42,389 nt of DNA from a virus. The stretch is from positions 1 through 42,389 of IMG/VR virus record IMGVR_UViG_3300032053_000163, one strand, 5' to 3'. The translations under genes were made by a program, and so were the position numbers. The notes beneath the pieces are model-generated. The model worked only from the letters and a program-made list of their open reading frames with translations. It was not told the origin of the DNA and did no database searches. Below, piece by piece: positions 2-42,389 of this stretch (the first letter of the stretch is position 1; every line of letters begins with the position of its first letter).

Positions 2-85
2 CATATTGAAGTGGTGAAAGTGTTGAAAGATCACATAAAGAAAAAGAAAATAAATGAAGCGATAAAACATCTTTCTCCAAAATCT
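2..85 (+). repeat. Long inverted repeat, left copy (ankyrin end plus tag)
   Basis: This stretch encodes the end of an ankyrin repeat, a KDHIKKKK linker and the tag INEAIKHLSPKS. It is nearly identical, with about four mismatches, to the reverse complement of 42144-42227. Two paralogous ankyrin genes therefore enter the window from both edges in opposite orientation. Confidence 0.85.
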
Positions 86-6156: not shown

Positions 6157-6506
6157 ATTTATATTTAATTATTTTACTTATTATATGTCTATCTATATTT
6201 AATATTTTTTCCATTTTTCGATAACTAACATTATCTTTTATTAAGTTATTAATTTCTTTAAGTAAATCTGAATTATCTAAAAATTGTTGAAATTTATTAA
6301 TTTTAATTTTTTAATTTATGATAAATATAATGTTCTTTTACTGTTAATAGAACTAAATTATTTTCTTCATTTGTTCCATTTAAACATTTTGGAATAATAT
6401 GGTGATTTTCATAATAAATATAATTTTTATCATCTCTGTTAATTTTAATTCTATTTTCAGATTTTGCTTTCTGAATTATAGATTCATATATTTTTTGATG
6501 ATCCAT
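6146..6506 (-). pseudogene. Broken HNH homing endonuclease (HNH part plus shifted HTH tail)
   Basis: Codons from 6506 to 6303 encode 67 residues with YYENHHIIPKCLNGTNEENN and a following KEHYIYHKL. These are closely similar to the intact HNH enzyme at 17900 (YYENHHVIPKCLDGSDEKEN, KEHFLCHKL). The frame stops just after HKL. In the +1 frame a further 50 or so codons, to a stop at 6146-6148, encode a helix-turn-helix-like tail (EINNLIKDNVSYRKMEKI, then NIDRHIISKII). The middle and the frame were lost, leaving a fossil. The ATG overlaps the stop of the upstream gene as TAATG. Confidence 0.7.
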
Positions 6507-10881: not shown

Positions 10882-11583
10882 TTATTTATTTTTAATACGA
10901 TCTTTTTTAATATGCCATATTTGTGATATTTTTCTAATAAATCTTTTTTTCGTATCAGCGCTTAATTTATTATATTCTAATCCTTGAGCACGTTGAAATA
11001 AAGATAAAATTTCTTTAAATGGGCGTATTTCATTATTTGAGTACCATTCAATATCATTTGTCATTCCTGCTATTATTGCGCTAATTTCTTCATTTGATTC
11101 TCTAGAATAATTATTAGATGCTTTACCTTCTGAAATATAATCGTTATAAGCATGACGTAATTCATGAATAAATGAAGAATCTATTTTAGTAATAAAATGT
11201 TTATTAGAATAATTTTTTTGATTTCCGAATATTGAACCACTATGATCTATACCTACCATATCAGATAATTCGATAACGCCTATAGGACAATTTGTTTTAT
11301 TTATATTTGTATATCTATATTCTTTATATTCAGGAAGGTTTAATTCTTCAAAATCTGATGGGCCAATAAATACAGCGCCATCACTCCAATGAAATCTACT
11401 GTTAATAATAATACAAATTTTATCTTTTATAAATTTTTTGAGTATATTGAAATCATTAATATCAAGAAAATCACAAAGATAATATATAACATCTTTTTTA
11501 AGATTTTTATTTATCATTAATTTTGTAATTTTTTCAAATTCATCTTGAATCTCATATTCTTCATTTATGAATTTAGCTCTCAT
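10882..11583 (-). CDS. Putative zinc metallopeptidase (HExxH) with capsid-type leader
   Basis: I chose the ATG at 11583 rather than one two codons upstream because the product then begins MRAKFINE, matching MRAKFVNE and MRAKLVNE at 37577 and 39778. Near the middle is HELRHAYNDY, a zincin HExxH motif, followed about 20 residues on by RESNEE, which could supply the third metal ligand. The substrate is unknown; virion maturation or cleavage of host proteins after injection are both possible. The leader FINE fits an (I/L)xE prohead-protease site. A late-promoter-like box lies just upstream. Confidence 0.65.
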   Translation of the reverse strand: MRAKFINEEYEIQDEFEKITKLMINKNLKKDVIYYLCDFLDINDFNILKKFIKDKICIIINSRFHWSDGAVFIGPSDFEELNLPEYKEYRYTNINKTNCPIGVIELSDMVGIDHSGSIFGNQKNYSNKHFITKIDSSFIHELRHAYNDYISEGKASNNYSRESNEEISAIIAGMTNDIEWYSNNEIRPFKEILSLFQRAQGLEYNKLSADTKKRFIRKISQIWHIKKDRIKNK

Positions 11584-11590
11584 ATACATT

Positions 11591-21612: not shown

Positions 21613-21891
21613 TTAAGAAAAATACGATAATATATCTAAAATGAATTCTATTAAAAATGTTACGCCCATTCCTATACAAACATATCCTAAAAAATTCCAA
21701 TTTGCATTTATTAGTGTTTTTAATCCATATCCAAAAACAAATGATTTTATAAATATTACTAATAAACTAACTAAAGAATTTATTATACTGTTTGCAGGTA
21801 TTATATTACTTGGATTGTGATTAGTTTCAGGATTTTGTTGATTATTTTTGAATTCATTTAACCTCTCACTTAATGATTCATTTTGTATCAT
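21613..21891 (-). CDS. Small membrane protein, 92 aa
   Basis: A hydrophilic N-terminus of about 35 residues (ESLSERLNEFKNNQQNPE) is followed by two membrane spans (about 36-55 and 64-86). Start overlaps the upstream stop (ATGA). No family is recognised; a holin-like role is possible but unsupported. Confidence 0.5.
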   Translation of the reverse strand: MIQNESLSERLNEFKNNQQNPETNHNPSNIIPANSIINSLVSLLVIFIKSFVFGYGLKTLINANWNFLGYVCIGMGVTFLIEFILDILSYFS

Positions 21892-22571
21892 TTTTTCTTA
21901 GTTTTAAGATCTATTTTTTTGACTTCAGGTTTTTCGTTTTCTTTTTTATGTTCGGGTTTTTCACTAGCAATTTCTTTATCTTCATGTTCTCCAGATTCAG
22001 GTTTTACAGTTGATTTAGTACCAATAGTTGTATGTTTTGTAGAATTTTCATCCGGTTTTACTATAGATTTTTCGCCTTCTTGTTTTCCAAATGATGGTGA
22101 AGATTTATTAGTATCAAGAGTATTTTTAGTTTTATTAACTTCACCAGTTTTTTCAACTCCTTTAGTATCGACAGTTCTTACTTCACCAAACATCCCAGGT
22201 TTAAAATCTTTTACTGAATCAAGATCTGTCTGTAAATCATATCCAGGTTCAAATTTTGCATCACCTATTTTCATTTCAACTTTAACTTCAACTTGAGCTT
22301 TATGATATTCTTTTTTTAACCATTGATATGCTTTCTGATTTACTTCAGGAATAATTAATCCTTCTTGATTAGGAAGTTGTCCACCTTTACCAGCACTACC
22401 CTGAGTTTTAGTATTAAACCCACCTTTATCTTCTCTAGGAGTATTTTGTTTTTGACTAATAAATCCAGTTTTTTCTTCTTTTTCTTCTTCGTCTTCTTCA
22501 TCTTCTTCAGAGCCAAAGCCTTCATTAAGTTTTTTTAAATACTCATTAATATTAAAGTAACCTGCTTTCAT
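21888..22571 (-). CDS. Highly charged low-complexity protein, 227 aa (capsid-interior candidate)
   Basis: The N-terminus reads MKAGYFNINEYLKKLNEGFG and contains two possible (I/L)xE protease sites (INE, LNE). A run of Glu and Asp follows (residues 22-33), then a long region rich in Lys, Glu, Thr, Gly and Pro with little hydrophobic content. It lies downstream of the portal, where T4 has acidic prohead core genes (67, 68). I infer a prohead core or internal head protein; sequence similarity to them is not shown. Confidence 0.5.
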   Translation of the reverse strand: MKAGYFNINEYLKKLNEGFGSEEDEEDEEEKEEKTGFISQKQNTPREDKGGFNTKTQGSAGKGGQLPNQEGLIIPEVNQKAYQWLKKEYHKAQVEVKVEMKIGDAKFEPGYDLQTDLDSVKDFKPGMFGEVRTVDTKGVEKTGEVNKTKNTLDTNKSSPSFGKQEGEKSIVKPDENSTKHTTIGTKSTVKPESGEHEDKEIASEKPEHKKENEKPEVKKIDLKTKKK

Positions 22572-23248: not shown

Positions 23249-25054
23249 TTATATTCCTAATGTTGTTGCTCCACCTTCTTCTTTATTAGTTTCTGGTTCT
23301 GCAGCAGGTTCTGCAACAGGTTCTTCAGTAGCGCCACCACCTAAATCTAAAGCTCCTGCACCACCTATATCACTACCTCCTGCGCCACCAAATCCTCCAA
23401 AGTCTCCACCAGCTCCACTCTCAGTTTGTCCACCTGCTTCAATACCCATACGTTTATAAGCAGCTATTATTCTATCCATTTGAGATTTTCTTTCTTTCTT
23501 ATATTTCTCATTAAGTTTAAGATCTTCATCAGGCATTTGCATATATTTTTCAACTGCAAATTTAGGATCGAAATAAGCTTCTTCTCCAATAGTTCCATCT
23601 GGTAATACAGTTGGTTGTTTAACGCCCATAAGATTTGAAACTGTTTCAGCGCCTTTAGCTGCAATTTCTCTTTCTTTTGCCACTGTAAATAAGTTCTCTT
23701 CAACAAAAGTTAAACCTACGGCTCCTTTTAATGCTTTATCTTTTGCAAATTCAGGATGTTTTAAGCAAAATTGAATCCAAGTAGGTTTTAATAATACCTC
23801 TTGAAGAATAGAACGAATACGATTTATAAAATACATAAATCTAATTTCTTCTCTTGCAATTGCATCTCCACCTGAACCCCAACTAACTTGTTGTTCACTC
23901 TCACTACTAAATCTACTATTTGGAACTTTTGTTTCAATAATAAATCTTTTCCAAAAATAATTTAACGCCTTTGTATCAGATAAGTCATAACCTTCTGGAG
24001 CAAATGATTCAATTTTAACTTCTCCGCCATCACCTTTAGATGGAAAAATATATTGTTTAGCAAATGAAAAGTTTGGAGTTCCATTGATTGATACTTCACC
24101 ACTATGATAATCTATTGTAACATCTTCTTTCCACATTGCTCTTAATTCAGAAAGTCTTGTTCTTGCTTTAACTTCTGATTGAGTGCCAATTGGAACAATA
24201 ATTCTCATTCTATATTGAGAGTTAATAACATTCCAAATAATACGGGTATTTTCCATTGTGCGAAGCATATTGAATGCTCTTACAAGTCTTTCAACATATG
24301 ATAATCTTGAAATAAAATTTCCTCTTGCCCAAGAAATATAGATTAAGTTACCATCAAGTAATTCTCTTTGTTTCTCAGCATCGCCTCTAAATTGAATCCA
24401 TACTCTAAAATCATTTTGTTCTTCATCTTTTCTCATTTCTGGTTCAAGAGTAACAGGATCTAATTCTTTAAATCCTAAAATATTCTTAGCATTTTCTGCG
24501 CCTTCACCATCATAGATTATTTCAAATGCAAGAAATCCGTCAATTAAGAATTTTTTAGCATAATGCCAGCCATCATGCCCTTGATTAAATCCAAATGCAT
24601 AATATACTTTTTTAAATGATTCATTAAGGTCATCTACAATTTCTTTAGCTTTTTCAGCTTTAAGAACTGCTTTAAGATTTTTTGTATTGGGATATGCAAA
24701 GAAATTTGCATCATCTAAAATAATTGTTTCATCAGCTATAACTTCTATAACATGTTCAATTTCACCATTCATTGCAAAACGACGTAAAAAATCCCTCCGT
24801 GTAGCATATTCACGATCAAAAAATGCTATGAATTCTTTTTGGCCAATATCCATTCCTGAAGCCAATTGATGCTGTCCATAAAGACTATACATCGAATCTT
24901 CAGTCATTTCGGTAATCCCTATTGACTTGCTTTGCTTGATCACGTGATCATTGTGGCGCATCCCAATAAGGGACATATACCTGATATTCCTTTGTATGTT
25001 ATCTAAGAATGATAAACTTCGGGTATCGAGATTTTTAACAGAAAAGCCGCTCAT
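23249..25054 (-). CDS. Portal vertex protein, T4 gp20-like
   Basis: The 601-residue protein follows the T4 gp20 pattern: an early EFIAFFDREYATRRDFLRRF, then EIEHVIEVIADETIILDD, FNQGHDGWHYAKKFLIDGFL, ELDPVTLEP, a long alpha/beta core (RTMENTRIIWNVINSQYRMR) and KVPNSRFS leading into the crown. The C-terminal 50 residues are Gly/Ala/Glu-rich and disordered. The portal is a dodecamer at one head vertex that nucleates prohead assembly, is the DNA gate, and docks terminase and neck. A TATAAATA box precedes it inside the end of the GIY-YIG gene. Confidence 0.9.
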   Translation of the reverse strand: MSGFSVKNLDTRSLSFLDNIQRNIRYMSLIGMRHNDHVIKQSKSIGITEMTEDSMYSLYGQHQLASGMDIGQKEFIAFFDREYATRRDFLRRFAMNGEIEHVIEVIADETIILDDANFFAYPNTKNLKAVLKAEKAKEIVDDLNESFKKVYYAFGFNQGHDGWHYAKKFLIDGFLAFEIIYDGEGAENAKNILGFKELDPVTLEPEMRKDEEQNDFRVWIQFRGDAEKQRELLDGNLIYISWARGNFISRLSYVERLVRAFNMLRTMENTRIIWNVINSQYRMRIIVPIGTQSEVKARTRLSELRAMWKEDVTIDYHSGEVSINGTPNFSFAKQYIFPSKGDGGEVKIESFAPEGYDLSDTKALNYFWKRFIIETKVPNSRFSSESEQQVSWGSGGDAIAREEIRFMYFINRIRSILQEVLLKPTWIQFCLKHPEFAKDKALKGAVGLTFVEENLFTVAKEREIAAKGAETVSNLMGVKQPTVLPDGTIGEEAYFDPKFAVEKYMQMPDEDLKLNEKYKKERKSQMDRIIAAYKRMGIEAGGQTESGAGGDFGGFGGAGGSDIGGAGALDLGGGATEEPVAEPAAEPETNKEEGGATTLGI

Positions 25055-27671: not shown

Positions 27672-27687
27672 TTTATTTTATATATTC
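27672..27687 (-). promoter_or_regulatory. Late-promoter-like box at the end of the Vsr-like gene
   Basis: The minus strand reads GAATATATAAAATAAA, overlapping the last codons (WEYIK-stop) of the endonuclease gene. The next intact gene, gp4-like, starts 219 nt downstream beyond the NUMOD3 remnant. Confidence 0.45.
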
Positions 27688-30336: not shown

Positions 30337-31344
30337 TTAATTTTTATATTTTGTAGTTATAATGTTTAATAAATTACCAGCTTCATCTTTAACTGAATTA
30401 AATTTTAAAATATGTTGATAATCATTATGAGCTTGAAAAGTGTCTTCTCTATCATCTATATAATTGATTACTATATGATCGTTTACATCATATTTTTGAA
30501 GCATTTTAATTAATCTTCCAACAGTAATAGTATCTTTATATAATTCATCTGTAAAAGGCTTAATGAATTTTTCATCCATTTTCGCTATTTTCATTAGTTT
30601 TATAGCAGCTTTTACTTTTTTAATATGTGGTGAATGTAAATATTCTTTTTCAGTTTCTGGTCTTTTCCATCTTTCTCTTTCTTCTTTTGTTTTTGGAGAT
30701 ACATATGAAGGATTTTTATGATTAGTTTGTGGTAATTGACTTATATCATAATTAGTAAAAGCCATTTTAATTATCTCAGTACCTTCTCCAGGATTTTTAG
30801 AAATTAATCCCCAATTAGTTATATAATTCTCTAATAAATCTTCAGCTATATCATTTGCAGTACAAAATTTGTATTTAAGAAAAAGCGCTACTGTTCTAGG
30901 ATGATTATAATATATAGACCATAATAAAGCTTTATATAAATGCTCTCTATTTCTAAAAGAATGCCACTTTTCTTTTGATACTGGACTTATAGTTGGTAAT
31001 AGTTTTGCTGACCACTTATCTATATTGAGATTATTTGTAGCTGCATCTTCAAGAATTTTTTCTGCATTTTCAGGATCTTGTTTAATAAGATAATTTAAGC
31101 CTTCTTCAAAATCATTTTTTAAAAATGTAGGAATTATTTGTCTATATTCTTGGCTATAATTATCTTCGATTTTTCCACTTTTTAAAGCAATAAGTATATA
31201 TTTTGGATTATTACTTTTAACACCATGTTTTAGTAATTGATCTGGCTCAAAATTACCAGCCTCAACAGCTTTATCTATCTCATCATTTGATTTAGGCGCA
31301 AGATGTTTAATCGCCTCATTGAGATTTTCAGCGACTATTTTCAT
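30337..31344 (-). CDS. Tagged ankyrin-like protein, 335 aa
   Basis: It begins MKIVAENLNE-AIKHLAPKS, the shared tag at residues 8-19, with LNE-A a good match to the (I/L)xE prohead-protease site. The next 170 residues form helical pairs reminiscent of degenerate ankyrin repeats (LLKHGVKSNNPKYILIALKS, KALLWSIYYNHPRTVALFLK). The C-terminal third has a beta-like region (VGRLIKMLQKYDVNDHIVIN). No catalytic site is seen. The tag suggests packaging in the head and ankyrin folds usually bind proteins, so a host-interaction factor delivered with the DNA is possible. Confidence 0.65.
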   Translation of the reverse strand: MKIVAENLNEAIKHLAPKSNDEIDKAVEAGNFEPDQLLKHGVKSNNPKYILIALKSGKIEDNYSQEYRQIIPTFLKNDFEEGLNYLIKQDPENAEKILEDAATNNLNIDKWSAKLLPTISPVSKEKWHSFRNREHLYKALLWSIYYNHPRTVALFLKYKFCTANDIAEDLLENYITNWGLISKNPGEGTEIIKMAFTNYDISQLPQTNHKNPSYVSPKTKEERERWKRPETEKEYLHSPHIKKVKAAIKLMKIAKMDEKFIKPFTDELYKDTITVGRLIKMLQKYDVNDHIVINYIDDREDTFQAHNDYQHILKFNSVKDEAGNLLNIITTKYKN

Positions 31345-31347
31345 TTT

Positions 31348-31995
31348 TTATTCTGATAATGTTTGGATAGAGCTTTTTGGATAAGACTGTAATTCTTGAA
31401 TATTACCATTTTCTCTAATAACTCTTACAGAATCAGCATCACCAATTGTATGTTCAAAATCACTAATATTTACAAGAATATCTTCTAACAATGTTCCATC
31501 ATCTTCGTTTATAATAAAACCTGGAACATAGTTATCTGGATTTGCAAAGGCATTAATATCTTCAAATAATCTTATTTGAGACTTGTTCATGAATGCTGAA
31601 TTACCTTCTACCATAACTTTAATAGGTTGTTCCAGAGAAGCATTAGCCCATTCACTATATTTAACATAACACTCTGTAAGTTTTACCGGAATATTTCCCA
31701 TATAAATACCACACCTAACTAATTGTTCAAATAACAGTTTTTGAGTTTTATCATCAAATTTCATATGAGGCTCAGTAGTAATATCAGGAGATTTTTTATT
31801 TTCTTTGACCTTTTTTGGATCTACATATTTTGTATCTCCTTGAATTTGCACTATTATTTTACCGTCAATTTGCCCAATAACAAATCCTTTTTCCCCATCA
31901 ATTCTTACGGTATCACCAATTTGACATTCATCTAAATAATTATCTTCTTGTAGACTTTCATTTAATTCTAGATCTTTATCAATTTTTGTTATCAT
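31348..31995 (-). CDS. Protein with SH3/KOW-like N-terminal domain, 215 aa
   Basis: The start MITKIDKDLELNE-SLQED contains an LNE-S site like those of the tagged proteins, but without IKHLSP. Residues about 27-62 resemble a small SH3/KOW barrel (GDTVRIDGEKGFVIGQIDG). The rest is mixed and unrecognised (KSQIRLFEDINAFANPDNY). It lies 4 nt after the stop of the 715-aa gene, so the two are likely cotranslated; a virion role is inferred. Confidence 0.5.
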   Translation of the reverse strand: MITKIDKDLELNESLQEDNYLDECQIGDTVRIDGEKGFVIGQIDGKIIVQIQGDTKYVDPKKVKENKKSPDITTEPHMKFDDKTQKLLFEQLVRCGIYMGNIPVKLTECYVKYSEWANASLEQPIKVMVEGNSAFMNKSQIRLFEDINAFANPDNYVPGFIINEDDGTLLEDILVNISDFEHTIGDADSVRVIRENGNIQELQSYPKSSIQTLSE

Positions 31996-31999
31996 ATTC

Positions 32000-34147
32000 T
32001 TATTGTTTTTTTACTTTTTTAAGAACTAATCTAGTTTTTGTTTTTGGTTTTCCTGGTTCTTTTGTTTTTGCATCTCCTGGTTCTGATACAGGTTCTGATA
32101 AATCATTTGGATTTTTGTCTTTCTTAAAATTAGTACGTTCTAAATCACGAGTAGGAGGTTCTACACCTTCTTCTTTTCTCTTTTCTTCTTCAGGATTTAC
32201 TTCTTCAGGTTGTTGTTCTAATTCGGCATCTTTTTCTCCATTAGCGCTTAAGTTAAGTTCATCCTTACCTTCTTTTGGTTTTTCTTCAACATTTCCTAAT
32301 TCACCGGGTTTTTCTTCATTTTCTTCTCCATCTTCACTCTCAATATCCTTTTCAGCATCCATTACATCAGCTTTAGCTTCAATTTCATCAGCTCCTAAGT
32401 TAACTTCATCATCTTCAATAGATGGTGCATCACTCAATAATTCTGCTTGATCATCGTCGAATGTCACGGCAGATGAAGGACTTTCAGCTGAAGGTAAATT
32501 AGACATACCTACTTCAGTTCCAAATGCATCACCCTCAGCTCCTGATTGACCTTCACCACCCTGTTCACCTTTTGATGATAAAGCTCCAGTAGGAATAACT
32601 ACAGTATGAGTTTTATTAGATTGATCATCTTGAACTGTAATAATTAAATTTTCAGAAACATTAGTATATTGCTCAACTTCATTAAGATAGTTTTTATAAT
32701 CATTTTTAACTTCATCTAATTCTTCAATAAGAGCGTTAATAACGGTTTGAACTACACTACCATTTTTTTCTGAAAAATCTTCAATTTTTCTTTCTAATAT
32801 ATTAATATATTCTAAATATTCTTGTTTTGCTATATTTATTTCAGATAAGATTTTTTCTTTATTTGGAAGAATTTCTTCAAACGTTTTAGAAACATCAAAT
32901 CTCATATGTTCCATCATAATTTTTTCAGCCTGAATAGGATTTATTTGACGATAAAATGTAGATTTATTATTTATAGGATCAAATGTTGTAATATAAATAT
33001 TATCTCTTAATTTAAATACATCTGCTGCATAATTTTCATTTTCTTTAAGATAAACTCTTTTAACAAAATCTAATTCAGCTATTTCATTAAAATTTTCTCT
33101 TAATATATTAACAATATTAAAAAATTCAGTATTTCCACCCCACATAGCAGTTTGTGCAGATTCATTAATTTGCTGTTGAGTAAAAATACCACTATTGATA
33201 TATGTTTCTGTTTCATTTAAAACAGCATTGTCATTACCAACATATACTTTAATATCTTTTTTAGATATTTCAATATTAGGATAATTGATTATTTCACAAA
33301 GATTTTTAAAATTTTCATCTATTTTTTTAATTTCATCTTTTTTAATTTTATTGATATAATTAGCTTTTTTAATATAATATGTTCCTTTAACATTAAACAT
33401 CACTTCATTTTCACCTAAATACATAATAGGAGAGAAAAGTCTATCTTCAATATCACATTCTGCATTGGCATATTCTAATTGAAGTTCAGTAGCGTCTAAT
33501 ACAAGTAAATTAAGAATGTCTCTAACAAAAGGATCATAACTGAATTTAACTAAAGATTCTTTTAACATGCTTTTAGTTTGCATAGTTTTATTAGTTAAAT
33601 AAGCTTCAACTAAATCTTCAATAAATGGAAGTAAATAATTACTTCTTGTAGATTTCATTATCTCGAGAATTTTAGTTATTTCAATATCATTCTTATAGTT
33701 TTTTACTCTATTTGTAACAGCTTCTAATTCAGTATTAACAGCTGATAAATAATTAAAATTTGACATCGCAGAAACAAAACTTTCATAAAGTAATATCTCT
33801 GGAGTGTTATCTAATTTTTCTCTAAAATCTTCTAATATTAAAGCAAGAGTATCATGATATTTAGCTTCTTTTTCAATTAACGTATTAACAGCTTTTCTTA
33901 CTCCTAAATATTTTAATACATAAAGACGCTTTTGATTTGATAGCCATTCGTTAATTACTTTATCTTCAGGATATTTTGCTAATTCCTCAAATAAATTTTC
34001 TAGTGCGACACGTTCTATTTCCACACGAACGTCTGATGTTACTCCATTATAAATAGCAGAAGAAATAACACTAATGGTTGTTTCACACAATGTCTGTACA
34101 CTTGCTATTTGAGTTTTAGATTTTAAATTTGATAATTTTTCTAACAT
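32000..34147 (-). CDS. Large virion-type protein with acidic tail, 715 aa
   Basis: The first 490 residues are largely helical (EIERVALENLFEELAKYPED, FVSAMSNFNYLSAVNTELE) with some beta. The last 190 residues are low-complexity, rich in Glu, Asp, Lys and Pro (EEVNPEEEKRKEEGVEPP), ending in a basic stretch KTRLVLKKVKKQ. No family is recognised. It lies between the gp15-like gene and tagged genes. Length and composition suggest a structural or internal virion protein. An A/T-rich promoter-like stretch (AAATATATAATAAAAA) lies upstream. Confidence 0.55.
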   Translation of the reverse strand: MLEKLSNLKSKTQIASVQTLCETTISVISSAIYNGVTSDVRVEIERVALENLFEELAKYPEDKVINEWLSNQKRLYVLKYLGVRKAVNTLIEKEAKYHDTLALILEDFREKLDNTPEILLYESFVSAMSNFNYLSAVNTELEAVTNRVKNYKNDIEITKILEIMKSTRSNYLLPFIEDLVEAYLTNKTMQTKSMLKESLVKFSYDPFVRDILNLLVLDATELQLEYANAECDIEDRLFSPIMYLGENEVMFNVKGTYYIKKANYINKIKKDEIKKIDENFKNLCEIINYPNIEISKKDIKVYVGNDNAVLNETETYINSGIFTQQQINESAQTAMWGGNTEFFNIVNILRENFNEIAELDFVKRVYLKENENYAADVFKLRDNIYITTFDPINNKSTFYRQINPIQAEKIMMEHMRFDVSKTFEEILPNKEKILSEINIAKQEYLEYINILERKIEDFSEKNGSVVQTVINALIEELDEVKNDYKNYLNEVEQYTNVSENLIITVQDDQSNKTHTVVIPTGALSSKGEQGGEGQSGAEGDAFGTEVGMSNLPSAESPSSAVTFDDDQAELLSDAPSIEDDEVNLGADEIEAKADVMDAEKDIESEDGEENEEKPGELGNVEEKPKEGKDELNLSANGEKDAELEQQPEEVNPEEEKRKEEGVEPPTRDLERTNFKKDKNPNDLSEPVSEPGDAKTKEPGKPKTKTRLVLKKVKKQ

Positions 34148-34234
34148 GATTGAAAATTATTTTGTTTTTTATAATTTAATTTAGAGATATTATTTTTATT
34201 ATATATTTATTAATATTAGATTTTTTTATCCTTT

Positions 34235-35575
34235 TTATATAATTCTGATACATCTTACTACATCAAATACATCATTATTCACAGAATTTGCTATATGTAT
34301 ATCTATTAATTTATAATCTACTGTCCCAGGAAAGAAAACCGACCCATCTAAAGTAACCGGGTTATTTATATCTATTTTATATCCCTTGAGATTGATTTTT
34401 ATTGATGAGTCTCCTGAATATGTAATAATATCATCATCATCTATCATTTCTAAAACAATATTTATTGATGTATCAGCTTGTGGCGCAATAAAATAACCTT
34501 CATCTATTATATTAAAAGAATTAGGAGTAATTAAACGAGTATATATATCAGGTAATATTCTTACAATAGGTTGTCTTAAAATAGAAGTACTAGAATCTTC
34601 TGACCATATAATAGTTGGATGTTGATATGCTGTAAAAGTTTCTGGAATATTCCAAACATAATACTCATTATTAGGAACTCCTAATTCAATTACATTAGTA
34701 ATATTGGTTCCAGTATTTAACCAATATGCATTTATTTTATTAATTATTGCATTTTCATGTGTATAATCCCACTCTATCATTAATGGAGATCCTTTTGGAA
34801 CAACTAAAGGACTAGCTTCAATACCATCAGTAGGCGTGGTTATATGAATAATTCCATCATTTTTTTGAGCTGGTCTATCAATAATACGATATCCAAGACC
34901 GCTCATGTTATTGTTAGCATTAGTTTCAGTGGTAGGATCAAATACAGGTTGATAAGTTTCAACTTGTAATGTAAAATTTATTTTTACTCTTGTAGTATTT
35001 TGAGTTTCAAATGAATATTGAATATTTTTTGTTAATGTAATATCTTCAGGAAAACCTACAGTACAGCCAACTCTCATTCCTTTGAAATAAACATAAAAAG
35101 TAACTGTTTTATAGAATACTTCACGAATTGCTTGTTCAACTTTTAATCCTGTTATCTGCGTATCTAACCAAAGTTCACAATCAATATTCATATTCAATGG
35201 AATAGAATAAAGAAAAGAACGATATGTTTGTAGTTGTCCATTAATGTCTTTAAGATAAAGACCTTGAATATATCTTGATGTAATACGTTGAGCATCAATA
35301 ACAGAGCCCACATAAGTTATAACACCTCTTGGAAAGAAATCAAAGTTACCATCAGCTGGTCTTGGGGCTTCGCAGTCTCCATAATGAGTAAAGAAATCTT
35401 GCATAAATCTTTCATCACCTGACATATTATAATACCAAGGAACTGTGATAGTTTCTATTTGATCAGTACTCCAAACTTGTTCATAAGTAATCTTATTATT
35501 GAGAATATTAAGTAATCCCGCGATTACGCTCCTACTTAAGATAGACTCGTTATTATAACGCTGATATAAAGCCAT
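34235..35575 (-). CDS. Tail terminator / sheath stabiliser candidate, T4 gp15-like with extra domains
   Basis: Residues 1-220 follow the order seen in T4 gp15: an early helix (LLNILNNKITYEQVW), a loop with WYYNMSGDERFMQDFFTHYG, YRSFLYSIPLNMNIDCELWL, a helix TGLKVEQAIREVFYKTVTFY corresponding to the gp15 QIVEQILPYF segment, then VGFPEDITLTKNI and a strand ending VETYQPVFDP. Residues about 250-350 look like an Ig-like domain (KGSPLMIEWDY, NNEYYVWNIPETF), and about 100 more residues follow. gp15 caps the tail tube and stabilises the sheath. The match is by pattern only and could be wrong. Confidence 0.5.
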   Translation of the reverse strand: MALYQRYNNESILSRSVIAGLLNILNNKITYEQVWSTDQIETITVPWYYNMSGDERFMQDFFTHYGDCEAPRPADGNFDFFPRGVITYVGSVIDAQRITSRYIQGLYLKDINGQLQTYRSFLYSIPLNMNIDCELWLDTQITGLKVEQAIREVFYKTVTFYVYFKGMRVGCTVGFPEDITLTKNIQYSFETQNTTRVKINFTLQVETYQPVFDPTTETNANNNMSGLGYRIIDRPAQKNDGIIHITTPTDGIEASPLVVPKGSPLMIEWDYTHENAIINKINAYWLNTGTNITNVIELGVPNNEYYVWNIPETFTAYQHPTIIWSEDSSTSILRQPIVRILPDIYTRLITPNSFNIIDEGYFIAPQADTSINIVLEMIDDDDIITYSGDSSIKINLKGYKIDINNPVTLDGSVFFPGTVDYKLIDIHIANSVNNDVFDVVRCIRII

Positions 35576-36539
35576 TTAATTTATTATAATTTTTATTTAT
35601 AACTACAATATATTTAAAACCATTAACGATAGTAGTTTTCTTTTTTATTTTTATATTTTCGTCTAGTTTTAAAGTCCAAGAACTTTTTATTTCAATTATA
35701 AGATTTAAAGATGGAATATAAAAATCAGGATGATAAACTTTATTCTTTCCATTAATTATATATTTTATTGATGGCCCACGTTTAATATCGGAGTATTTAC
35801 TAAAATATTTTTCTAAAAAATCTAATTCATATGAACCTTGATACCAAATATTTGTATCTCTAAATTTATGAATTTCTAATTTAGTTTTTTGTCCTTTTTC
35901 ATATATTTCTTTATTTTGAGCAGGATTTTCCACTCCATATTTTTCTAAACAGGTTTGTTTAGTTTTTTCTTGTATTTTTTTAGATTGTAAAGGATATTCA
36001 ACTCCATATTTTTTTAACATAGTTTGTTTTCCTTTTTCAATATTATGATAATTTTCATCACCATATTTTTGTAATTTTGTTTGTTTATTTTTTAATTGAT
36101 TATTATAATTTTCATCATCATATTTTTCTTTTTTTGTCATTTTTATTTGGTCTATAACATCTTCTCTTTGCCAATTATATTCAACACCATATTTTTCTAG
36201 CCTGTTTTGTTTTGTTTTTTCATGAATTTCTTTTCTTTCCCATTGATTTTTTACACCATAGATTTGTATTAATGATATTGATCGAATATTATAAGCATTT
36301 AAATCTATATGTTTTCTACAACATCCTAATTTATATCCATAATTAAAATTTAAAAATTCTGTTTTTTGACCACAAATTTTACATATTCCTTCATCGTCTT
36401 CTTTTAGCCACTTATCATAATATTGTTTAAAATTGTGTATTTTGTTTACATGATAACTTAAAGTTTTTTTATATACAAATGTTTTTTTACATTCTTCACA
36501 TACAAATAAACCTTCAATATTTTTTCTAAATTCGTTCAT
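35553..36539 (-). CDS. Zinc-finger PD-(D/E)xK homing endonuclease, 328 aa
   Basis: It opens with a C2H2-like finger (CEECKKTFVYKKTLSYHVNK) and a CKICGQ Cys pair, followed by five or so DNA-binding repeats of the type LEKYGVENPAQNKEIYEK. The C-terminal nuclease has YQGSYELDFLEKY, then HPDFYIPSLNLIIEIKSSW with the Asp and Glu-x-Lys of a PD-(D/E)xK site. It overlaps the start of the gp15-like gene by 23 nt, and its own ATG overlaps the upstream stop as TAATG. It appears intact. Confidence 0.85.
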   Translation of the reverse strand: MNEFRKNIEGLFVCEECKKTFVYKKTLSYHVNKIHNFKQYYDKWLKEDDEGICKICGQKTEFLNFNYGYKLGCCRKHIDLNAYNIRSISLIQIYGVKNQWERKEIHEKTKQNRLEKYGVEYNWQREDVIDQIKMTKKEKYDDENYNNQLKNKQTKLQKYGDENYHNIEKGKQTMLKKYGVEYPLQSKKIQEKTKQTCLEKYGVENPAQNKEIYEKGQKTKLEIHKFRDTNIWYQGSYELDFLEKYFSKYSDIKRGPSIKYIINGKNKVYHPDFYIPSLNLIIEIKSSWTLKLDENIKIKKKTTIVNGFKYIVVINKNYNKLNGFISAL

Positions 36540-36769
36540 TATCCTACATATGAATTTATTTTATCACTCATGACATTGAATAATTCACTGGTAGACTTAA
36601 TCATTCCACTAGTGTATTCAGGAATAATTACTTCGCTAAATAATGCAGCTTTATTTTCATCAGAAATTTTTACACTTTCTGCATCTATGTATGCTTGAAA
36701 ATCATTTCTTAAAGTATCTTCTGAATATTGACCTTCTTGCTCATATAATTTTTCACGAACTAATTTCAT
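36539..36769 (-). CDS. Small protein with capsid-type leader, 76 aa
   Basis: It begins MKLVREKLYE-QEGQ, a basic leader ending in LYE, which fits the (I/L)xE protease rule. The rest is a small acidic helical protein (NDFQAYIDAESVKISDENKA, FSEVIIPEYTSGMIK). No family is recognised. The endonuclease gene downstream overlaps its stop. Confidence 0.5.
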   Translation of the reverse strand: MKLVREKLYEQEGQYSEDTLRNDFQAYIDAESVKISDENKAALFSEVIIPEYTSGMIKSTSELFNVMSDKINSYVG

Positions 36770-36785
36770 AATATATTTTTTTATT

Positions 36786-37577
36786 TTAACTAAAAAACTT
36801 AATAAGCTCTTGTATCATTTTATCATCTAATAGTCCTTTATAATTAAACCTACCGTCACCACTCCAATTACCTTCTAATTGATTATAATCATCTGGCATT
36901 AAACAAGTATCTTTCCATCCAGGTTTTCCTACTGTACCAGTTTTATCAACAGCAATAAATGTATACCCACTATCTGATTCTACGCTTGTATCAAATCCTA
37001 ATTTATGCAATTTTGACATAAACACTCTAGCATAATCTAATATATCATCTTCACGTTCTTCATTTGTTCTATCTTCATCATCTTCATCTTCATCATGCCA
37101 ATCATCGTCATCATTACTACTTTGATTAGCATTTTCTCCTGCAGAGTATATATCAGTTCCAATTTCATGTACCATTTCTATTACTGAATCTGCAATGAAA
37201 TCTACATTCCATACATCATATGTTTGCGATCTACTGGCATCTTCATCTATATCGCCATTTTTACTAGAAAGATTTCCTTCACCTTTTATAGTTTTATTTT
37301 TTAAATTAACATTAACAGTTATTTCAACCCATGGATGTCTTTCTTCATTATCTTCCCAATCAACATTATATTCTTGTTTCACAAATACTTCTCCATCTCC
37401 TCCATCATCATATTCAACATCAACATTATAATTTTGGCCGTATCCTTGTAGTCCATCTTCAATAAGTTTACATAATCTGTCTAATGATTGTAATTCATCC
37501 CATTTAGCTTGTTGTTTAGAAGATAATTTTTTTCCCGGCATATGTTTAATACCTTCATTGACAAATTTTGCTCTCAT
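36786..37577 (-). CDS. Tagged acidic protein, 263 aa
   Basis: It starts MRAKFVNE-GIKHMPGKK, a variant of the shared tag. A mixed domain follows (GYGQNYNVDVEYDDGGDGEV), then a strongly acidic linker around residues 150-175 (Asp/Glu-rich) and a small C-terminal domain (YARVFMSKLHKLGFDTSVES). The function is unknown. The leader is almost identical to that of the 39410 gene and of the HExxH protein, although the bodies differ. It lies 19 nt after the helicase in the same orientation region. Confidence 0.65.
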   Translation of the reverse strand: MRAKFVNEGIKHMPGKKLSSKQQAKWDELQSLDRLCKLIEDGLQGYGQNYNVDVEYDDGGDGEVFVKQEYNVDWEDNEERHPWVEITVNVNLKNKTIKGEGNLSSKNGDIDEDASRSQTYDVWNVDFIADSVIEMVHEIGTDIYSAGENANQSSNDDDDWHDEDEDDEDRTNEEREDDILDYARVFMSKLHKLGFDTSVESDSGYTFIAVDKTGTVGKPGWKDTCLMPDDYNQLEGNWSGDGRFNYKGLLDDKMIQELIKFFS

Positions 37578-37596
37578 TATATTGAATTTATTTTAT

Positions 37597-39351
37597 TTAT
37601 TCATTAACTATTTTTAGTCTTTGGATAAATTCAACTGGGAAAGCTTTTCTATTATTATGAATTAAATCAGCAAGAGCAGCATCTAGAATATATGTTACAG
37701 CCCAATCAGTTTCAGACCTTACAGATCTTCCTGTTCCTTGTAATATGTTGATAATCGCACGCCATCGATACCAATCGCCGTCTATTTTTAGTTTAGTTGC
37801 TACAAATTTATCACTTAAAGATAAATAAGGAACTTTAGCAAATATTTGAAATCTACTCCATTCATCTTTTAAGTCTAATCCCTCTAATAAAGATGGTCCC
37901 ATAAGTATTTTAGATTTATCTCTTTTTAATTGTTCTAATACTTCTCTTTTTTCTATAGTTCCATTATATGGAAGTATTCTTTTATGGCTTTGTTTAGAAA
38001 TATTTGCATATATTTTTTCAGCTAAATTGTAAGATGCTGTATGAATAATTCCATTTTCATGTTTATGATCATTTAGTATTTTATCAATAGTTTCATACAT
38101 CCAAGGAAGATTAGCTTCTATTTGACCATACGTCATTCTTCTTTTATTGTAAAAATAAATTGGAGACTTTGTAAAATCAAAATTAGAATCCATCTTGATA
38201 TATTTTGCATTCTTTAGTGCTATACTTTTCATGTATTTAGAGGGATCTGCAAATGTCGCAGACATTAGCACTGTAAACCCTGTCCAATTATGAAAGTATT
38301 TATGCATCATATAAGATTCTTCTAAACAATTAAATGTAAGTTCTTCTTCTCCTGTTGGATTTTTTACTATATTTCTCGTAGAAGTAGAATTTATAATTTC
38401 ATTGAAATCTTCTATTTTACAATGTAAATCTTTTAACCAATCACAAAGTCTTAATGCTTCTCTCCATTCTCTTGGAGGATCATCGTGTGGATAATCTTCT
38501 TTAACTCTATTTTTAAGTTTATCCCAAGAAGCTCTATACATTTCAAAAGTTTCTTCAATATGCATTAAAATTTCAAGTAAATCATCTTGATTTTCAGTTT
38601 TATATAATTGTGCTATATAATTTTTAGCATCATAATAATCTTTTTTATGATCACGAACTTTGTAAGTATCAAAGAAATCTGTAAGTTTTTCTAATTTTTC
38701 TAATGCCTTTTTATCAAATCTTGGTGAATAATGATTTTGAACAATATCTAAAATTTTATGGCCTTCATCACATATAGTAAAATCTCTTGGTTCAAATAAT
38801 GGATATTCTATATGTTGATTCACATAGTTCATCATTATTAACCAATAAGCATAATTTAAAAGAGCTGTTGGTGATTCCGAAGCTTTATCTCTTGCTACAA
38901 AATAAGGGCATTGACCATAACAAGACATTCTTTTTGGAGCTTTATTTCTAACACGGCAAGTTCCTAAAGAATGTTTTTCCATATTATCAATACAAAGATA
39001 ATTGTCAACACCTTTTACAGATCCCCAAGTTATATTGAAGTTTTTAAAATCTTTTTCATATTGTTCTTGAAGTGAAATATCAGAAGCAAGAATAAATCCC
39101 TTTTTATCATTTTGATTCAATATATATGATACAGCCATAGCAATTAAAGATTTTCCAGATCCAACTGGAGCATCTAAAATTACAGTTTTAACACCATTTC
39201 TTTGTGCTTCTATGATTTCTATTATGGTTTCTTTTTGTCCTTTTCGCCATGAGAAAATTTCAGGAAGGAAAGTTGTTTGAAATTCTTGAAGTTGGTTTTC
39301 AATTACTTGTCTTAGTTCATCAGGTGATTTTGGCGATAGATGTTTTATCAT
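37597..39351 (-). CDS. DinG/XPD-type superfamily 2 DNA helicase with shared tag, 584 aa
   Basis: Visible motifs: Walker A GSGKS (64-68, in LDAPVGSGKSLI), four cysteines C120, C132, C144 and C148 spaced like the XPD/DinG iron-sulphur cluster, motif II DEGH (195-198), LLEGLDLKD, and motif VI ILQGTGRSVRSETDW. The family unwinds DNA 5' to 3'. The protein starts MIKHLSPKSPDELRQVIE, that is, the shared tag with no leader or NE site. This suggests that it is a virion-packaged helicase or that the tag is a docking element. The box TAGAAATATAAAGAAA lies just upstream and a terminator isolates it from the 39410 gene. Confidence 0.88.
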   Translation of the reverse strand: MIKHLSPKSPDELRQVIENQLQEFQTTFLPEIFSWRKGQKETIIEIIEAQRNGVKTVILDAPVGSGKSLIAMAVSYILNQNDKKGFILASDISLQEQYEKDFKNFNITWGSVKGVDNYLCIDNMEKHSLGTCRVRNKAPKRMSCYGQCPYFVARDKASESPTALLNYAYWLIMMNYVNQHIEYPLFEPRDFTICDEGHKILDIVQNHYSPRFDKKALEKLEKLTDFFDTYKVRDHKKDYYDAKNYIAQLYKTENQDDLLEILMHIEETFEMYRASWDKLKNRVKEDYPHDDPPREWREALRLCDWLKDLHCKIEDFNEIINSTSTRNIVKNPTGEEELTFNCLEESYMMHKYFHNWTGFTVLMSATFADPSKYMKSIALKNAKYIKMDSNFDFTKSPIYFYNKRRMTYGQIEANLPWMYETIDKILNDHKHENGIIHTASYNLAEKIYANISKQSHKRILPYNGTIEKREVLEQLKRDKSKILMGPSLLEGLDLKDEWSRFQIFAKVPYLSLSDKFVATKLKIDGDWYRWRAIINILQGTGRSVRSETDWAVTYILDAALADLIHNNRKAFPVEFIQRLKIVNE

Positions 39352-39374
39352 AAATTTCTTTATATTTCTATAAA

Positions 39375-39409
39375 GAAAAAAGGCTTAAGTTTTAATTGTT
39401 AAGCCTTTA
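39375..39409 (-). terminator. Rho-independent terminator
   Basis: A perfect 10-bp stem, AAAGGCTTAA (39379-39388) and TTAAGCCTTT (39399-39408), with a 10-nt loop lies directly after the stop of the 39410 gene. A T run follows on the minus strand. Confidence 0.85.
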
Positions 39410-39778
39410 TTAAAAAGAATCCCCTGGATCATAATCCATCCAGCATTCTATAATTTCTATAGCTTCTTCTATTGTACTTACTTCTTCAGAATCTGATTGA
39501 GGATGTTGCCCATCTTCATACTGTGCTTCAAAAGGTAAATCATTATCCGGGTTAAGTCCTATTCCATAATAATTTCCTTTATGCGATATTCCAGCTGTAA
39601 AATATTCTGGATCATCATTATTAATAGTTAATCTTTTTTTATGCTGTTTTGCAAAATTTTTCATAGCAATAGTAATAGCAGCTATTCTTTCTTTAAGTGG
39701 ACCTCTATTTTTTTCTAATTCTTCTTCAGATCTTGGAGGCATATGCTTTATTGCCTCATTTACAAGTTTTGCTCTCAT
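39410..39778 (-). CDS. Tagged small protein, 122 aa
   Basis: It starts MRAKLVNE-AIKHMPPRSEEE, a full copy of the shared tag with leader. The body is a small alpha/beta domain (AAITIAMKNFAKQHKKRLTI, then GISHKGNYYGIGLNPDND) with an acidic C-terminus. No family is recognised. Its start overlaps the stop of the 39775 gene (ATGA) and a strong terminator follows, so it ends the right-hand tagged cluster's transcript. Confidence 0.65.
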   Translation of the reverse strand: MRAKLVNEAIKHMPPRSEEELEKNRGPLKERIAAITIAMKNFAKQHKKRLTINNDDPEYFTAGISHKGNYYGIGLNPDNDLPFEAQYEDGQHPQSDSEEVSTIEEAIEIIECWMDYDPGDSF

Positions 39779-40173
39779 TTAAAAATAAAATTATAGTTTT
39801 TGTTTGCTACATCTTTTAATTTTTGTGTCAATTCTGGTGTTAAATCTTCTTGTAATTTTCCGGCGTATTCTGCCATTTCTTCCCAACAATCTTCTCTTTT
39901 TCCATTATCATCTCTTACAGCAGGACTATCAAAATATTCATAATCATCTTTTGTATTAAATAATTGTTCTAAATTCCAAAAAAATCTATCTTCGCTATTT
40001 ATACCTAATTGATGAAATAAATATCGCCAATTTTTATGAGCTGTATGATGCCAATTATACGCAACAGTCATAAAACCATTATCTAAAATAGATTGTGCTA
40101 CTCCTGCTAAATAATCTATTTTAATTTGTCTTATTTCTTCAGGCGTTTTAGGAGATAAATGCTTTATAGCCAT
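39775..40173 (-). CDS. Tagged small protein, 132 aa
   Basis: It starts MAIKHLSPKTPEEIRQIK. After Met removal the N-terminus would be AIKHLSPK, exactly the N-terminus expected when the leader-bearing relatives are cut after NE. The body is helical with many aromatic and His residues (YNWHHTAHKNWRYLFHQLGI). No family is recognised. Both ends overlap neighbouring genes (TAATG and ATGA), so the cluster is translationally coupled. Confidence 0.65.
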   Translation of the reverse strand: MAIKHLSPKTPEEIRQIKIDYLAGVAQSILDNGFMTVAYNWHHTAHKNWRYLFHQLGINSEDRFFWNLEQLFNTKDDYEYFDSPAVRDDNGKREDCWEEMAEYAGKLQEDLTPELTQKLKDVANKNYNFIFK

Positions 40174-40445
40174 TATTTTTCATGATAAATTTTCTTAAAA
40201 TCTTCAGGAGATAATGATGAAGTCATTCCTATATTTGGCCCATTTATTATTTTAACCGTTAAATATACCGGATATCTCTTATCAGTTATACTTTCTTTAA
40301 CATTTATTATTCTTGCTTCATTTTTTCCATCAAAATATGATTTAGAAATATCTATATCATATCCAAGGTTTTTAAGTTTACGTTGCAATTTAAATTGTTG
40401 AATATAACTTGTTAAACTTTCATTTACTAAATTAGTCATAACCAA
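40173..40445 (-). CDS. Small protein with capsid-type leader, 90 aa
   Basis: The product begins MVMTNLVNE-SLTSYIQQF; the second Met may be the true start. LVNE-S matches the leader and cut site of the tagged proteins, although IKHLSP is absent. The rest is a small basic alpha/beta protein (RKLKNLGYDIDISKSYFDG, YPVYLTVKIINGPNIG). The function is unknown. Its stop overlaps the next ATG (TAATG). Confidence 0.55.
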   Translation of the reverse strand: MVMTNLVNESLTSYIQQFKLQRKLKNLGYDIDISKSYFDGKNEARIINVKESITDKRYPVYLTVKIINGPNIGMTSSLSPEDFKKIYHEK

Positions 40446-40449
40446 TAAA

Positions 40450-40887
40450 TTATATTATATCTTTTACATATATTTTTTGTAGTTTTGGATTACCTTTTAT
40501 TTTGAATAAAAATAAATCGCCATCTTGTAATTCTGCCATTGGAATGCCTATAATATTTTCATCTGGATTTTGTTTAACTGAAAACTTGAATGGTTCTCTA
40601 TCTGGCTCAACTTTCAATAATTCATTTTTTAATTGAAGTTTTATTTGTTCTTCTCCATCTTCATCACGAATAATATCGTTTTCGTCATCCATGTCTGATA
40701 CGTCTATTTTATCAAAAATTTCAGTATCTATTTCATCAGGATTTATTTCATCTTCTATATCAACATCTTCTATTTTTGGAATATCTTCATCTTCTAATAA
40801 ATAAATATCTCTCATTTTTTCTAATTCATTATCTCGCATTGAGAAATCTTTTAAAGATTCTTCTACTAAAATAAGTTTTTTACTCAT
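40450..40887 (-). CDS. Acidic protein with capsid-type leader, 145 aa
   Basis: I choose the ATG at 40887 (product MSKKLILVEE-SLKDFSMR) because the longer frame begins with TTG. VEE-S again resembles a prohead-protease site. The middle is very acidic (EDVDIEDEINPDEIDTEI) and the C-terminus is a small beta-like domain (GIPMAELQDGDLFLFKIKGN). No family is recognised. It heads a tight run of four small genes ending at the 39.4-kb terminator. Confidence 0.55.
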   Translation of the reverse strand: MSKKLILVEESLKDFSMRDNELEKMRDIYLLEDEDIPKIEDVDIEDEINPDEIDTEIFDKIDVSDMDDENDIIRDEDGEEQIKLQLKNELLKVEPDREPFKFSVKQNPDENIIGIPMAELQDGDLFLFKIKGNPKLQKIYVKDII

Positions 40888-40949
40888 AATCTTGTTTATT
40901 TTATTTATCTTTGACAAATATAATATTTTTTCTTTATATTGTATACTTT

Positions 40950-42389
40950 TTATAATAATGTTTGTGCATGTTCTATTTGATGTATAAAATCATCAATATC
41001 AGAAAATGAGTTAAAATATCTCCACTTCCACTTCTTTGAAAGAGGATAATATGTTTGTGTTACACTTATTTTAAGTTTATCATCTTTTTCTTTCCACACA
41101 TAAAACTTTGCATTTTTATTTAATAGATCAAAATTAAATCTATCATTTTCTAGATATGAAATATCATTAAATTTTCTAGTTTCAATGATATACTCTCTTG
41201 CTTGTTTAAGTGTATTTTGATTATACTCATCTATTTCATCTGAAAGTCTGGGACTCAAATGTTTTATTGATTCTGTGTATAATTGTGGATAAAATTTTTC
41301 ATCATCATATTCTTCTGACTCAGTATGCATTTTTTCTACAATAATAAGGATATCTTTTTTAAATTTTTCGTATTCAGTTTCTACAACATCTCCTAATAGA
41401 TAATCTAATTGATAGTCTAATCTATCTCCCATTTCTTTTCTATTTACAGTAAATGTTCCTTCATCGTGGCCTATTTCTGCGCTATCTTTATATTTTGCAT
41501 CAAATGTATAATCTGCTTTATTAAATCCACTTCTTACGCTTCGCGCAGATGTATGAAATAAAACAATATTTATTGTAAGCACAACAGGTTCTTCGTCTTC
41601 TATATTTGGAAGATCTTCTACTTCATCTGATAAATAAATGTTTTGAGAAAGTGTAATCTCATAATTAGTTTCAGAATTTATTTTGTAATTTACTTTAAAC
41701 GCAGCTTCTCTAAGAGGATCAAATACTCTTTTTATTTTTTCGATAATATATGCAGGAAAATGTTCTTTATATTCACTTCCAAATTCTTGCGCTAAATATT
41801 CTTGATCTACTAAATGTCCTTCTTTATCATAAATTTCATCTTGTAACCAACCAATATAATATCGTTCTGCGAATTGAAGTTTAGATAATGAGTTTCTTCC
41901 TTTTAAAGCTTCTCTTATTTCAGATTTTTTGGTTTTTAAAGATTTGTAAATTCCTGCTACTCGTTGTTCAAAAGTATCATGCGGTGATTTTCTATATACA
42001 TCATTTAAATATTGTATACATTTCAATATGTCAGCTTTTTCTTTTATTCCTTGTATTATTAAATTGATTTTTCTATAGTTACATCCTTCTCTTACTTTAT
42101 CTTCAGAAGAAAGTTTTTCATAATATTGTTGTAATTCATCATCAGATTTTGGAGAAAGATGTTTTATTGCTTCATTTATTTTCTTTTTCTTTATGTGATC
42201 TTTCAACACCTTCACCATTTCAACATGATCATTTCCACTTGCCCATTGTAAAGCATAATCATCTCTTGCGTGCACATCTGCACCAGCAACAAGCAACACC
42301 TTCACCATTTCAACATGCCCATTTTGGCTTGCCCATCGTAAAGCTAAATCATCTCTTGCGTGCACATCTGTACCAGCAGCAAGCAACAC
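40950..42389 (-). CDS. Ankyrin-repeat protein with two shared tags (5' end outside window)
   Basis: The frame is open to the window edge. The visible part holds two near-identical 30-residue ankyrin repeats (GADVHARDDYALQWASG, HVEMVKVLLVAGA), a KDHIKKKK linker, tag 1 (INE-AIKHLSPKSDDE), about 270 residues of unrecognised soluble sequence with beta character, and tag 2 (YTE-SIKHLSPRLSDE) leading a C-terminal domain of about 90 residues. It is the counterpart of the left-edge gene, which has the same ankyrin, linker and tag arrangement. The ankyrin DNA is visibly richer in G and C than the rest, suggesting separate origin. If the tags are protease sites, the product would be cut into an ankyrin part and two others. 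Confidence 0.8.
   Translation of the reverse strand: MLLAAGTDVHARDDLALRWASQNGHVEMVKVLLVAGADVHARDDYALQWASGNDHVEMVKVLKDHIKKKKINEAIKHLSPKSDDELQQYYEKLSSEDKVREGCNYRKINLIIQGIKEKADILKCIQYLNDVYRKSPHDTFEQRVAGIYKSLKTKKSEIREALKGRNSLSKLQFAERYYIGWLQDEIYDKEGHLVDQEYLAQEFGSEYKEHFPAYIIEKIKRVFDPLREAAFKVNYKINSETNYEITLSQNIYLSDEVEDLPNIEDEEPVVLTINIVLFHTSARSVRSGFNKADYTFDAKYKDSAEIGHDEGTFTVNRKEMGDRLDYQLDYLLGDVVETEYEKFKKDILIIVEKMHTESEEYDDEKFYPQLYTESIKHLSPRLSDEIDEYNQNTLKQAREYIIETRKFNDISYLENDRFNFDLLNKNAKFYVWKEKDDKLKISVTQTYYPLSKKWKWRYFNSFSDIDDFIHQIEHAQTLL
42138..42389 (-). repeat. Tandem 90-bp ankyrin-coding repeats
   Basis: The plus-strand phrase CACCTTCACCATTTCAACATG recurs at a 90-bp spacing (ATG at 42225 and 42315), as does ATCATCTCTTGCGTGCACAT. 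The unit of 30 codons is shorter than the usual 33-residue ankyrin repeat. The array continues beyond the window edge. Confidence 0.8.
42144..42227 (-). repeat. Long inverted repeat, right copy (ankyrin end plus tag)
   Basis: Reverse complement of this stretch is almost identical to 2-85, covering HVEMVKVLKDHIKKKK and INEAIKHLSPKS. The two paralogous genes diverge just after the tag. Confidence 0.85.

Follow-up and report, generated by a model that had tools for sequence, protein, structure and literature searches.

Why should a helicase, a lysozyme, ankyrin-repeat proteins and proteins without any known family share one short peptide? The question is raised by the IMG/VR virus record IMGVR_UViG_3300032053_000163, a fragment of 42,389 bases that was analysed over its full length and is called the window below. 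A preliminary description had noted ten copies of IKH in eight open reading frames (ORFs). A six-frame listing of IKH found all ten in open frames, as IKH(L/M)x(P/G). Shuffling the residues of 53 window ORFs 1000 times gave on average 0.014 matches to this pattern and never more than one, against ten observed, and a chance origin of the tags was rejected. The tagged bodies are indeed unrelated (a DEAD-type helicase, PF13307; a phage lysozyme, PF00959; ankyrin repeats; family-less proteins), and the same tag residues are encoded by differing codons, e.g. CATCTTTCTCCA, CATCTATCGCCA, CATTTATCTCCT and CATTTGAGTCCC. The tags are not restricted to positions 30337-42389, where they were first described, as the copies at 62, 458 and 4079 fall outside. 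The answer that we favour, and consider somewhat probable as a whole, is that many of these proteins carry a T4-type leader removed by a protease, that some are made as strings, and that the IKH peptide is a second tag serving as a docking signal.

Short N-terminal leaders had been described in front of the tags. This is true for part of them (Table 1): the ORFs starting at 39351 (MIKHLSPKS) and 40173 (MAIKHLSPKT) have no leader, and four tags are internal in long ORFs, after other domains. MTNLVNE is not the leader of an IKH tag; it belongs to a neighbouring ORF, where SLTSY follows. The leaders do end in the T4-type (I/L/V)xE site, and sequence comparison shows their length to equal that of the leaders of T4 internal proteins. 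In the window and its relatives, 59 leaders have 10 residues and 35 have eight. Position P3 is hydrophobic in all; the glutamate at P1 was a selection criterion and is hence invariant. In the modal ten-residue leader MKLVREHINE (n=59), E6 and E10 are invariant, V4 is present in 56 of 59 and position 8 is hydrophobic; the modal eight-residue leader is M-(R/K)-A-K-F-(I/V)-N-E. The T4 proteins IPII and IPIII start with MKTYQEFIAE↓A (here and below, the arrow marks the cut), likewise ten residues, and share M1, K2, E6, I8 and E10 with MKLVREHINE. Residues 4 and 7 of the T4 leader mainly serve targeting, and residues 8 and 10 control processing (PMC9026906). Roughly ten N-terminal residues ending in hydrophobic-x-Glu, the mark of a T4-type capsid-targeting leader, are thus present here. 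That the leader is cut is a well-supported prediction, and packaging and cleavage of the leadered proteins are likely.

A search of related phages for the motif had been proposed, and scans of viral sequences with tag DNA gave contigs with many IKH copies. Six of them (G006, G007, G008, G009, G012 and G013) contain from 3 to 17 genuine IKH tags each, and G010 has one. In bacterial genomes there were 26 matches to the IKH pattern; in a follow-up scan, the matches shown resemble chance hits, apart from a borderline one near an ORF start (L050). The closest relatives by portal protein contain no match to the IKH pattern. They bear F(T/S)ExSDPIxDMGIG at the same place, behind leaders such as MKLVREHINE and MRAQFVFE; in G002 this sister tag is found in most genes of a run of about 22 kb. 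A scan for DPIxDMGIG yielded 101 stretches plus the 405-kb contig G018, in which at least 54 genes are tagged near the N-terminus and 78 such tags occur overall. A third form, NFERGxDPxxxMGIG, was observed in G005, G032 and G035. Neither IKH nor DPIxDMGIG matched in the phage collection, and searches of the literature yielded no account of them.

NE and IKH had been regarded as one signal. They are two: there are leaders without a tag (two window proteins, and others in nearly every contig examined), tags without a leader, and sister phages that keep the leader but swap the tag. All 55 IKH tags obey one rule of position. Thirty-nine lie one residue past a predicted cut, and 16 lie at the start methionine, with or without one residue in between (MA-, MS-), which loss of the methionine would expose; therefore the tag belongs at the mature N-terminus. 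No DPIxDMGIG without a leader was seen among the tags of the sister lineages. The alignment of the window helicase with its G018 orthologue (76% identity) begins at residue 17 of the former and residue 3 of the latter, and the orthologues in three more contigs are untagged as well. Residues 1-16 of the window protein are thus missing from all four relatives, and the tag is an add-on. The same holds for an RNA ligase of G009 (PF09511), which is IKH-tagged, leaderless and 60% identical to an untagged G003 protein.

ORFs with several tags are common, and G018 73584-75773 has five. Window ORF 2-1759 and the right-edge ORF are built alike, of an ankyrin-like part, a cut site, a tagged module, a second cut site and a second tagged module. 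Among 14 IKH hits classed automatically as internal, three are false (two chance matches and one mis-called start); the 11 genuine ones are all directly preceded by hydrophobic-x-Glu, against a background of 2.5%. For internal DPIxDMGIG the fraction is 61/65 with the same background, and at least two more fit once a shift of the tag by one residue is allowed. The sequence further upstream of these junctions varies widely. Internal modules have a median size of 106 residues and standalone tagged proteins one of 111; a homologue of the latter kind exists for 31 of the 65 modules. The multi-tag ORFs are tandems of small unknown or ankyrin modules, and most tagged bodies have no counterpart among the Pfam or PHROG families. 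For a two-module protein, AlphaFold without an alignment gave an unusable model (pLDDT 29).

Homologous bodies may bear different tags. The IKH protein G009 12601-13023 has a DPIxDMGIG homologue in G018 323519-324460; G012 6518-7303 matches G018 145622-146773 across the same divide, and ankyrin proteins do likewise. Codon agreement between copies of DPIxDMGIG is about that expected from genome codon usage at most positions, which argues for selection on the peptide. Copies of the IKH tag share codons more often than expected at P, R and S. The claim that selection acts on the tag peptide thus stands, and some shared descent has to be allowed for within the IKH set. For a tagged ankyrin protein, AlphaFold produced a model of pLDDT 86 from seven sequences; residues 1-13, i.e. 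the leader and IKHL, have values below 50 and precede a helix from residue 18, which is consistent with an exposed tail forming a cleavable, readable signal. It can be read directly from the sequences that leader and tag are separate elements, that the sites follow one rule, that cargo is fused into strings and that tags are exchanged.

With G005 as root, the simplest history would be that a DPxxxMGIG-like tag was ancestral and gave way to IKH. The contig G008 (L085) belongs to the IKH lineage but encodes, beside an IKH-tagged gene, one protein with the sister tag (MRAKFIYEKFTDESDPIEDMGIGLGKA; 2979-3407, minus strand), which could be left over from the replacement of tags or have been imported recently.

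The preliminary description also proposed to look for a gp21-like protease gene elsewhere in this genome. It is absent from the 42-kb window fragment and present in the sister-tag phage G018, where a profile built from megaphage proteases located it fused to a scaffold-like region; a gp23-like capsid protein gene is present as well. The motifs of the G018 protease are GELDHP and SSR, vs GELNHP and SSR in T4 gp21. A search of the contigs with the gp21 profile PF03420 gave no match, nor did it give any in the controls. The predicted site of the capsid protein is HALNE↓AAMGG in G018 and HALNE↓(A/S) in close relatives. The T4 gp23 site is SFLTE↓AEIGG (residues 65/66), a match made by eye, as the automatic alignment is shifted here. 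Capsid propeptides of G018 and its close relatives would therefore end in the same kind of site as the leaders, and one kind of site is common to leaders, internal junctions and capsid protein. The only capsid-like ORF among the IKH contigs searched has 297 amino acids and is in G010.

Several further observations concern leaders and proteases. A TATATAAAATAAA-like element that recalls the T4 late promoter is found upstream of the portal gene and many leadered genes of the window and its relatives, and is rare before leaderless tagged genes. It lies within about 45 bases upstream of 11/31 leadered IKH genes, 1/15 leaderless ones and 22% of other genes; its link as a late promoter with leadered genes is suggestive only. 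G003 (45229-48597) and G002 (44366-47960) encode a leadered (MKKLVPESIEE) MoxR-like AAA ATPase beside a VWA/metallopeptidase-like protein (DUF2201), and the start of the leadered ATPase is present in G018 (45465-47117). The 635-735 kb megaphages LR756503 and LR745206 (L108, L109) seem to have a large set of capsid-targeting leaders of their own, with no second tag behind them: many of their proteins start with MK(H/Y)I-x-x-(F/Y)-x-x-(F/Y)-x-E. The protease genes of the same two phages (L114, L115) have a scaffold-like fused region made of many YSEYIAENLDKNI repeats, each with a T4-type IAE site.

The following mechanism is proposed. Capsid-targeting leaders of T4 type would bring internal head proteins into the prohead, where a gp21-like protease would cut the leaders after hydrophobic-x-Glu; the same protease would separate ORFs that are strings of cargo proteins with the same cut sites. 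The cut would leave a lineage-specific second tag at, or one residue from, the new N-terminus: (A/S/G)-IKHLxP(R/K)S in this lineage, K-F(T/S)ExSDPIxDMGIG in the sister lineage and NFERGxDPxxxMGIG in the third. The tag may be a docking signal by which a single partner encoded by the phage, probably located in the head, stores or ejects the cargo. This role is the weakest link of the scheme. It seems the most likely one because the tag survives leader removal, is present on dozens of unrelated bodies, is conserved as a peptide and changes as a set from one sister phage to another. A bolder version, which we hold only tentatively, makes the second tag a phage-specific zip code, read by one receptor that handles storage or ejection of all the cargo in order. 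If true, the receptor and dozens of tags changed together between sister megaphages, and each lineage has a private cargo channel.

A number of points count against the proposed mechanism. Packaging into the head is deduced from sequence. Sixteen of the 55 IKH tags are leaderless. Inside tagged bodies, hydrophobic-x-Glu is depleted at most slightly, although depletion would be expected if the bodies meet the protease. Neither the protease gene nor a gp21-adjacent capsid gene was found in the window or in the searched IKH contigs, all of which are fragments. The helicase and the RNA ligase are leaderless, and all their detected orthologues are untagged, which suggests that the tag acts also, or instead, outside the head. 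One possibility, which we consider doubtful, is that the tag acts in the host cell on new or injected proteins and brings them to a place or partner, the leader being an optional ticket to the head. Both leaderless enzymes plausibly work in the cell, and a tag would survive injection. However, the lack of leaderless tags in the sister lineages ties the tag to head cargo, and the helicase orthologues do without it.

The tag could also be an exosite, that is, a downstream recognition element that guides the cut by the prohead protease and has no role afterwards. Nearly every tag that is not leaderless does stand directly after hydrophobic-x-Glu, and leaderless DPIxDMGIG was not seen. On the other hand, the leaderless IKH tags have no cut site, and sites of this kind occur without a tag in the capsid protein and in leader-only proteins. 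This explanation is therefore unlikely: the leaderless tags argue that the tag does more than assist cleavage, and it might have a role in the cell. It is more improbable still that the leader does not target the capsid and that a different protease cuts its site to some other end, for example secretion or the activation of a toxin. The likeness to T4 leaders in length and key residues argues against this, as does the predicted site in the sister-phage capsid protein; packaging is itself a deduction, and nothing was found that favours this alternative specifically. Finally, the tag might be the first segment of a spreading domain, or a relic of DNA-level copying by duplication of gene starts. 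True paralogy does exist among tagged proteins with ankyrin bodies, and the excess codon agreement of IKH at P, R and S would fit. Most bodies, however, share nothing and match no Pfam family; homologous bodies bear different tags, DPIxDMGIG codons are near expectation at most positions and no common upstream DNA is evident by eye. An intrinsic domain of each protein and a DNA-level repeat were both rejected. We consider this last explanation highly improbable.

Table 1. Leaders, tags and head-related genes of the window
Feature	Position	Strand	Remarks
Tag IKHLSPKS behind ...KKKINE↓A	62..85	+	inside ORF 2-1759 (ankyrin-like segments, C-terminal lysozyme)
Second tag IKHLSPRS behind ...TIVNE↓S	458..481	+	ORF 2-1759; predicted polyprotein junction
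Leader MKKQVVKESIVNE, 13 residues, predicted removed	4037..4075	+	
Tag IKHLSPRS	4079..4102	+	ORF 4037-5179
Leader-only protein MYMRAKFINE↓EYEIQ	10882..11589	-	HELRH segment in body, no tag
Acidic protein near portal gene, putative prohead core component	21888..22571	-	orthologues retain LxE site near residue 17
T4 gp20-like portal protein	23249..25054	-	used for phylogenetic placement
Tag IKHLAPKS	31288..31311	-	ORF 30337-31344
Leader MKIVAENLNE, 10 residues	31315..31344	-	
Leader-only protein MKLVREKLYE↓QEGQ	36539..36769	-	no tag
Divergent tag IKHMPGKK	37527..37550	-	ORF 36786-37577
Leader MRAKFVNE, 8 residues	37554..37577	-	
Leaderless tag IKHLSPKS	39325..39348	-	helicase ORF 37597-39351; residues 1-16 are the add-on
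Tag IKHMPPRS	39728..39751	-	ORF 39410-39778
Leader MRAKLVNE, 8 residues	39755..39778	-	
Leaderless tag IKHLSPKT (MA-IKHLSPKT)	40144..40167	-	ORF 39775-40173
Leader-like protein MTNLVNE↓SLTSY	40173..40439	-	no tag
Second tag IKHLSPRL behind ...QLYTE↓S	41244..41267	-	right-edge ORF 40950-42389
Tag IKHLSPKS behind ankyrin repeats and ...KKKINE↓A	42144..42167	-	right-edge ORF 40950-42389

The window portal protein is 77-83% identical (best segment) to those of most contigs found with it, with 92% for L015 and 64% for L016, and 39-42% identical to those of Prevotella Lak phages and LR756500. By this kinship, the source phage is classed as an uncultured megaphage related to the Lak/LR756500 group, and a Bacteroidetes host is plausible. 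In a tree of nine shared genes the window stands beside the phages with DPIxDMGIG, and the third-tag contig G005 forms the longest branch; mean identity of shared genes between window-type and DPIxDMGIG contigs is about that among DPIxDMGIG contigs. Also near the portal gene is a protein of 715 residues with an acidic C-terminal part (32000-34147, minus strand) that belongs to no family and has 60-69% identity to its counterparts in most relatives; it is possibly a core or scaffold protein. The structural region of the window, like that of its relatives, is interrupted by ORFs that resemble homing endonucleases of GIY-YIG/HNH type by eye (5157-5348, 6303-6506, 11691-12719, 17900-18751, 25060-25806, 27673-29340 and 35553-36539).

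These data suggest a large modular system for loading proteins into heads. If the proposed mechanism is right, 50 to 80 head-cargo modules in one phage, most without known relatives, are flagged by sequence alone and can be listed at once as candidates for injected proteins with anti-defence or takeover roles. A second, exchangeable signal would then be added to the capsid-targeting system of T4, with internal proteins made as strings for cutting, and portable pairs of leader and tag would have a practical use in filling large phage heads with proteins.

Parts of the scheme have counterparts in known systems. Megaphages of the Prevotella Lak/LR756500 type have related portal, fused protease/scaffold and capsid genes; a search for the DPIxDMGIG pattern in four megaphage genomes, one of them a Lak genome, gave no match. 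The head ejection proteins of SPN3US and phiKZ-type phages are likewise numerous internal proteins of giant phages, processed by a Glu-specific prohead protease (gp245). According to the part of that account cited here, however, their motif is A-X-E and not I/L/V-x-E, the propeptides are mostly long (111-254 residues) and no shared tag is mentioned (PMC10052503). Polyvalent proteins of phages and plasmids also have several modules per polypeptide, are predicted to be injected and are partly processed, but their modules are varied enzymatic domains and processing is attributed to their own peptidase domains (PMC5512222). This combination of disparate enzymatic domains with an own peptidase in one chain was not found here; small unknown modules are set apart by predicted sites of the prohead protease, and the same tag stands behind every site. 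The closest parallel in build is with IPI, IPII, IPIII and Alt of T4, which are cut by gp21. Common features are the short N-terminal leader (10 residues in IPII and IPIII) ending in hydrophobic-x-Glu, fast-changing and mostly unknown bodies and, in the sister phage, a gp21-like protease together with a gp23-like capsid protein with a matching predicted site. T4 has four internal proteins, whereas the 405-kb phage has at least 54 proteins tagged near the N-terminus, and the megaphages add a second conserved tag behind the cut, fused strings of cargo, tags that differ between sister phages and a protease fused to a scaffold-like region.

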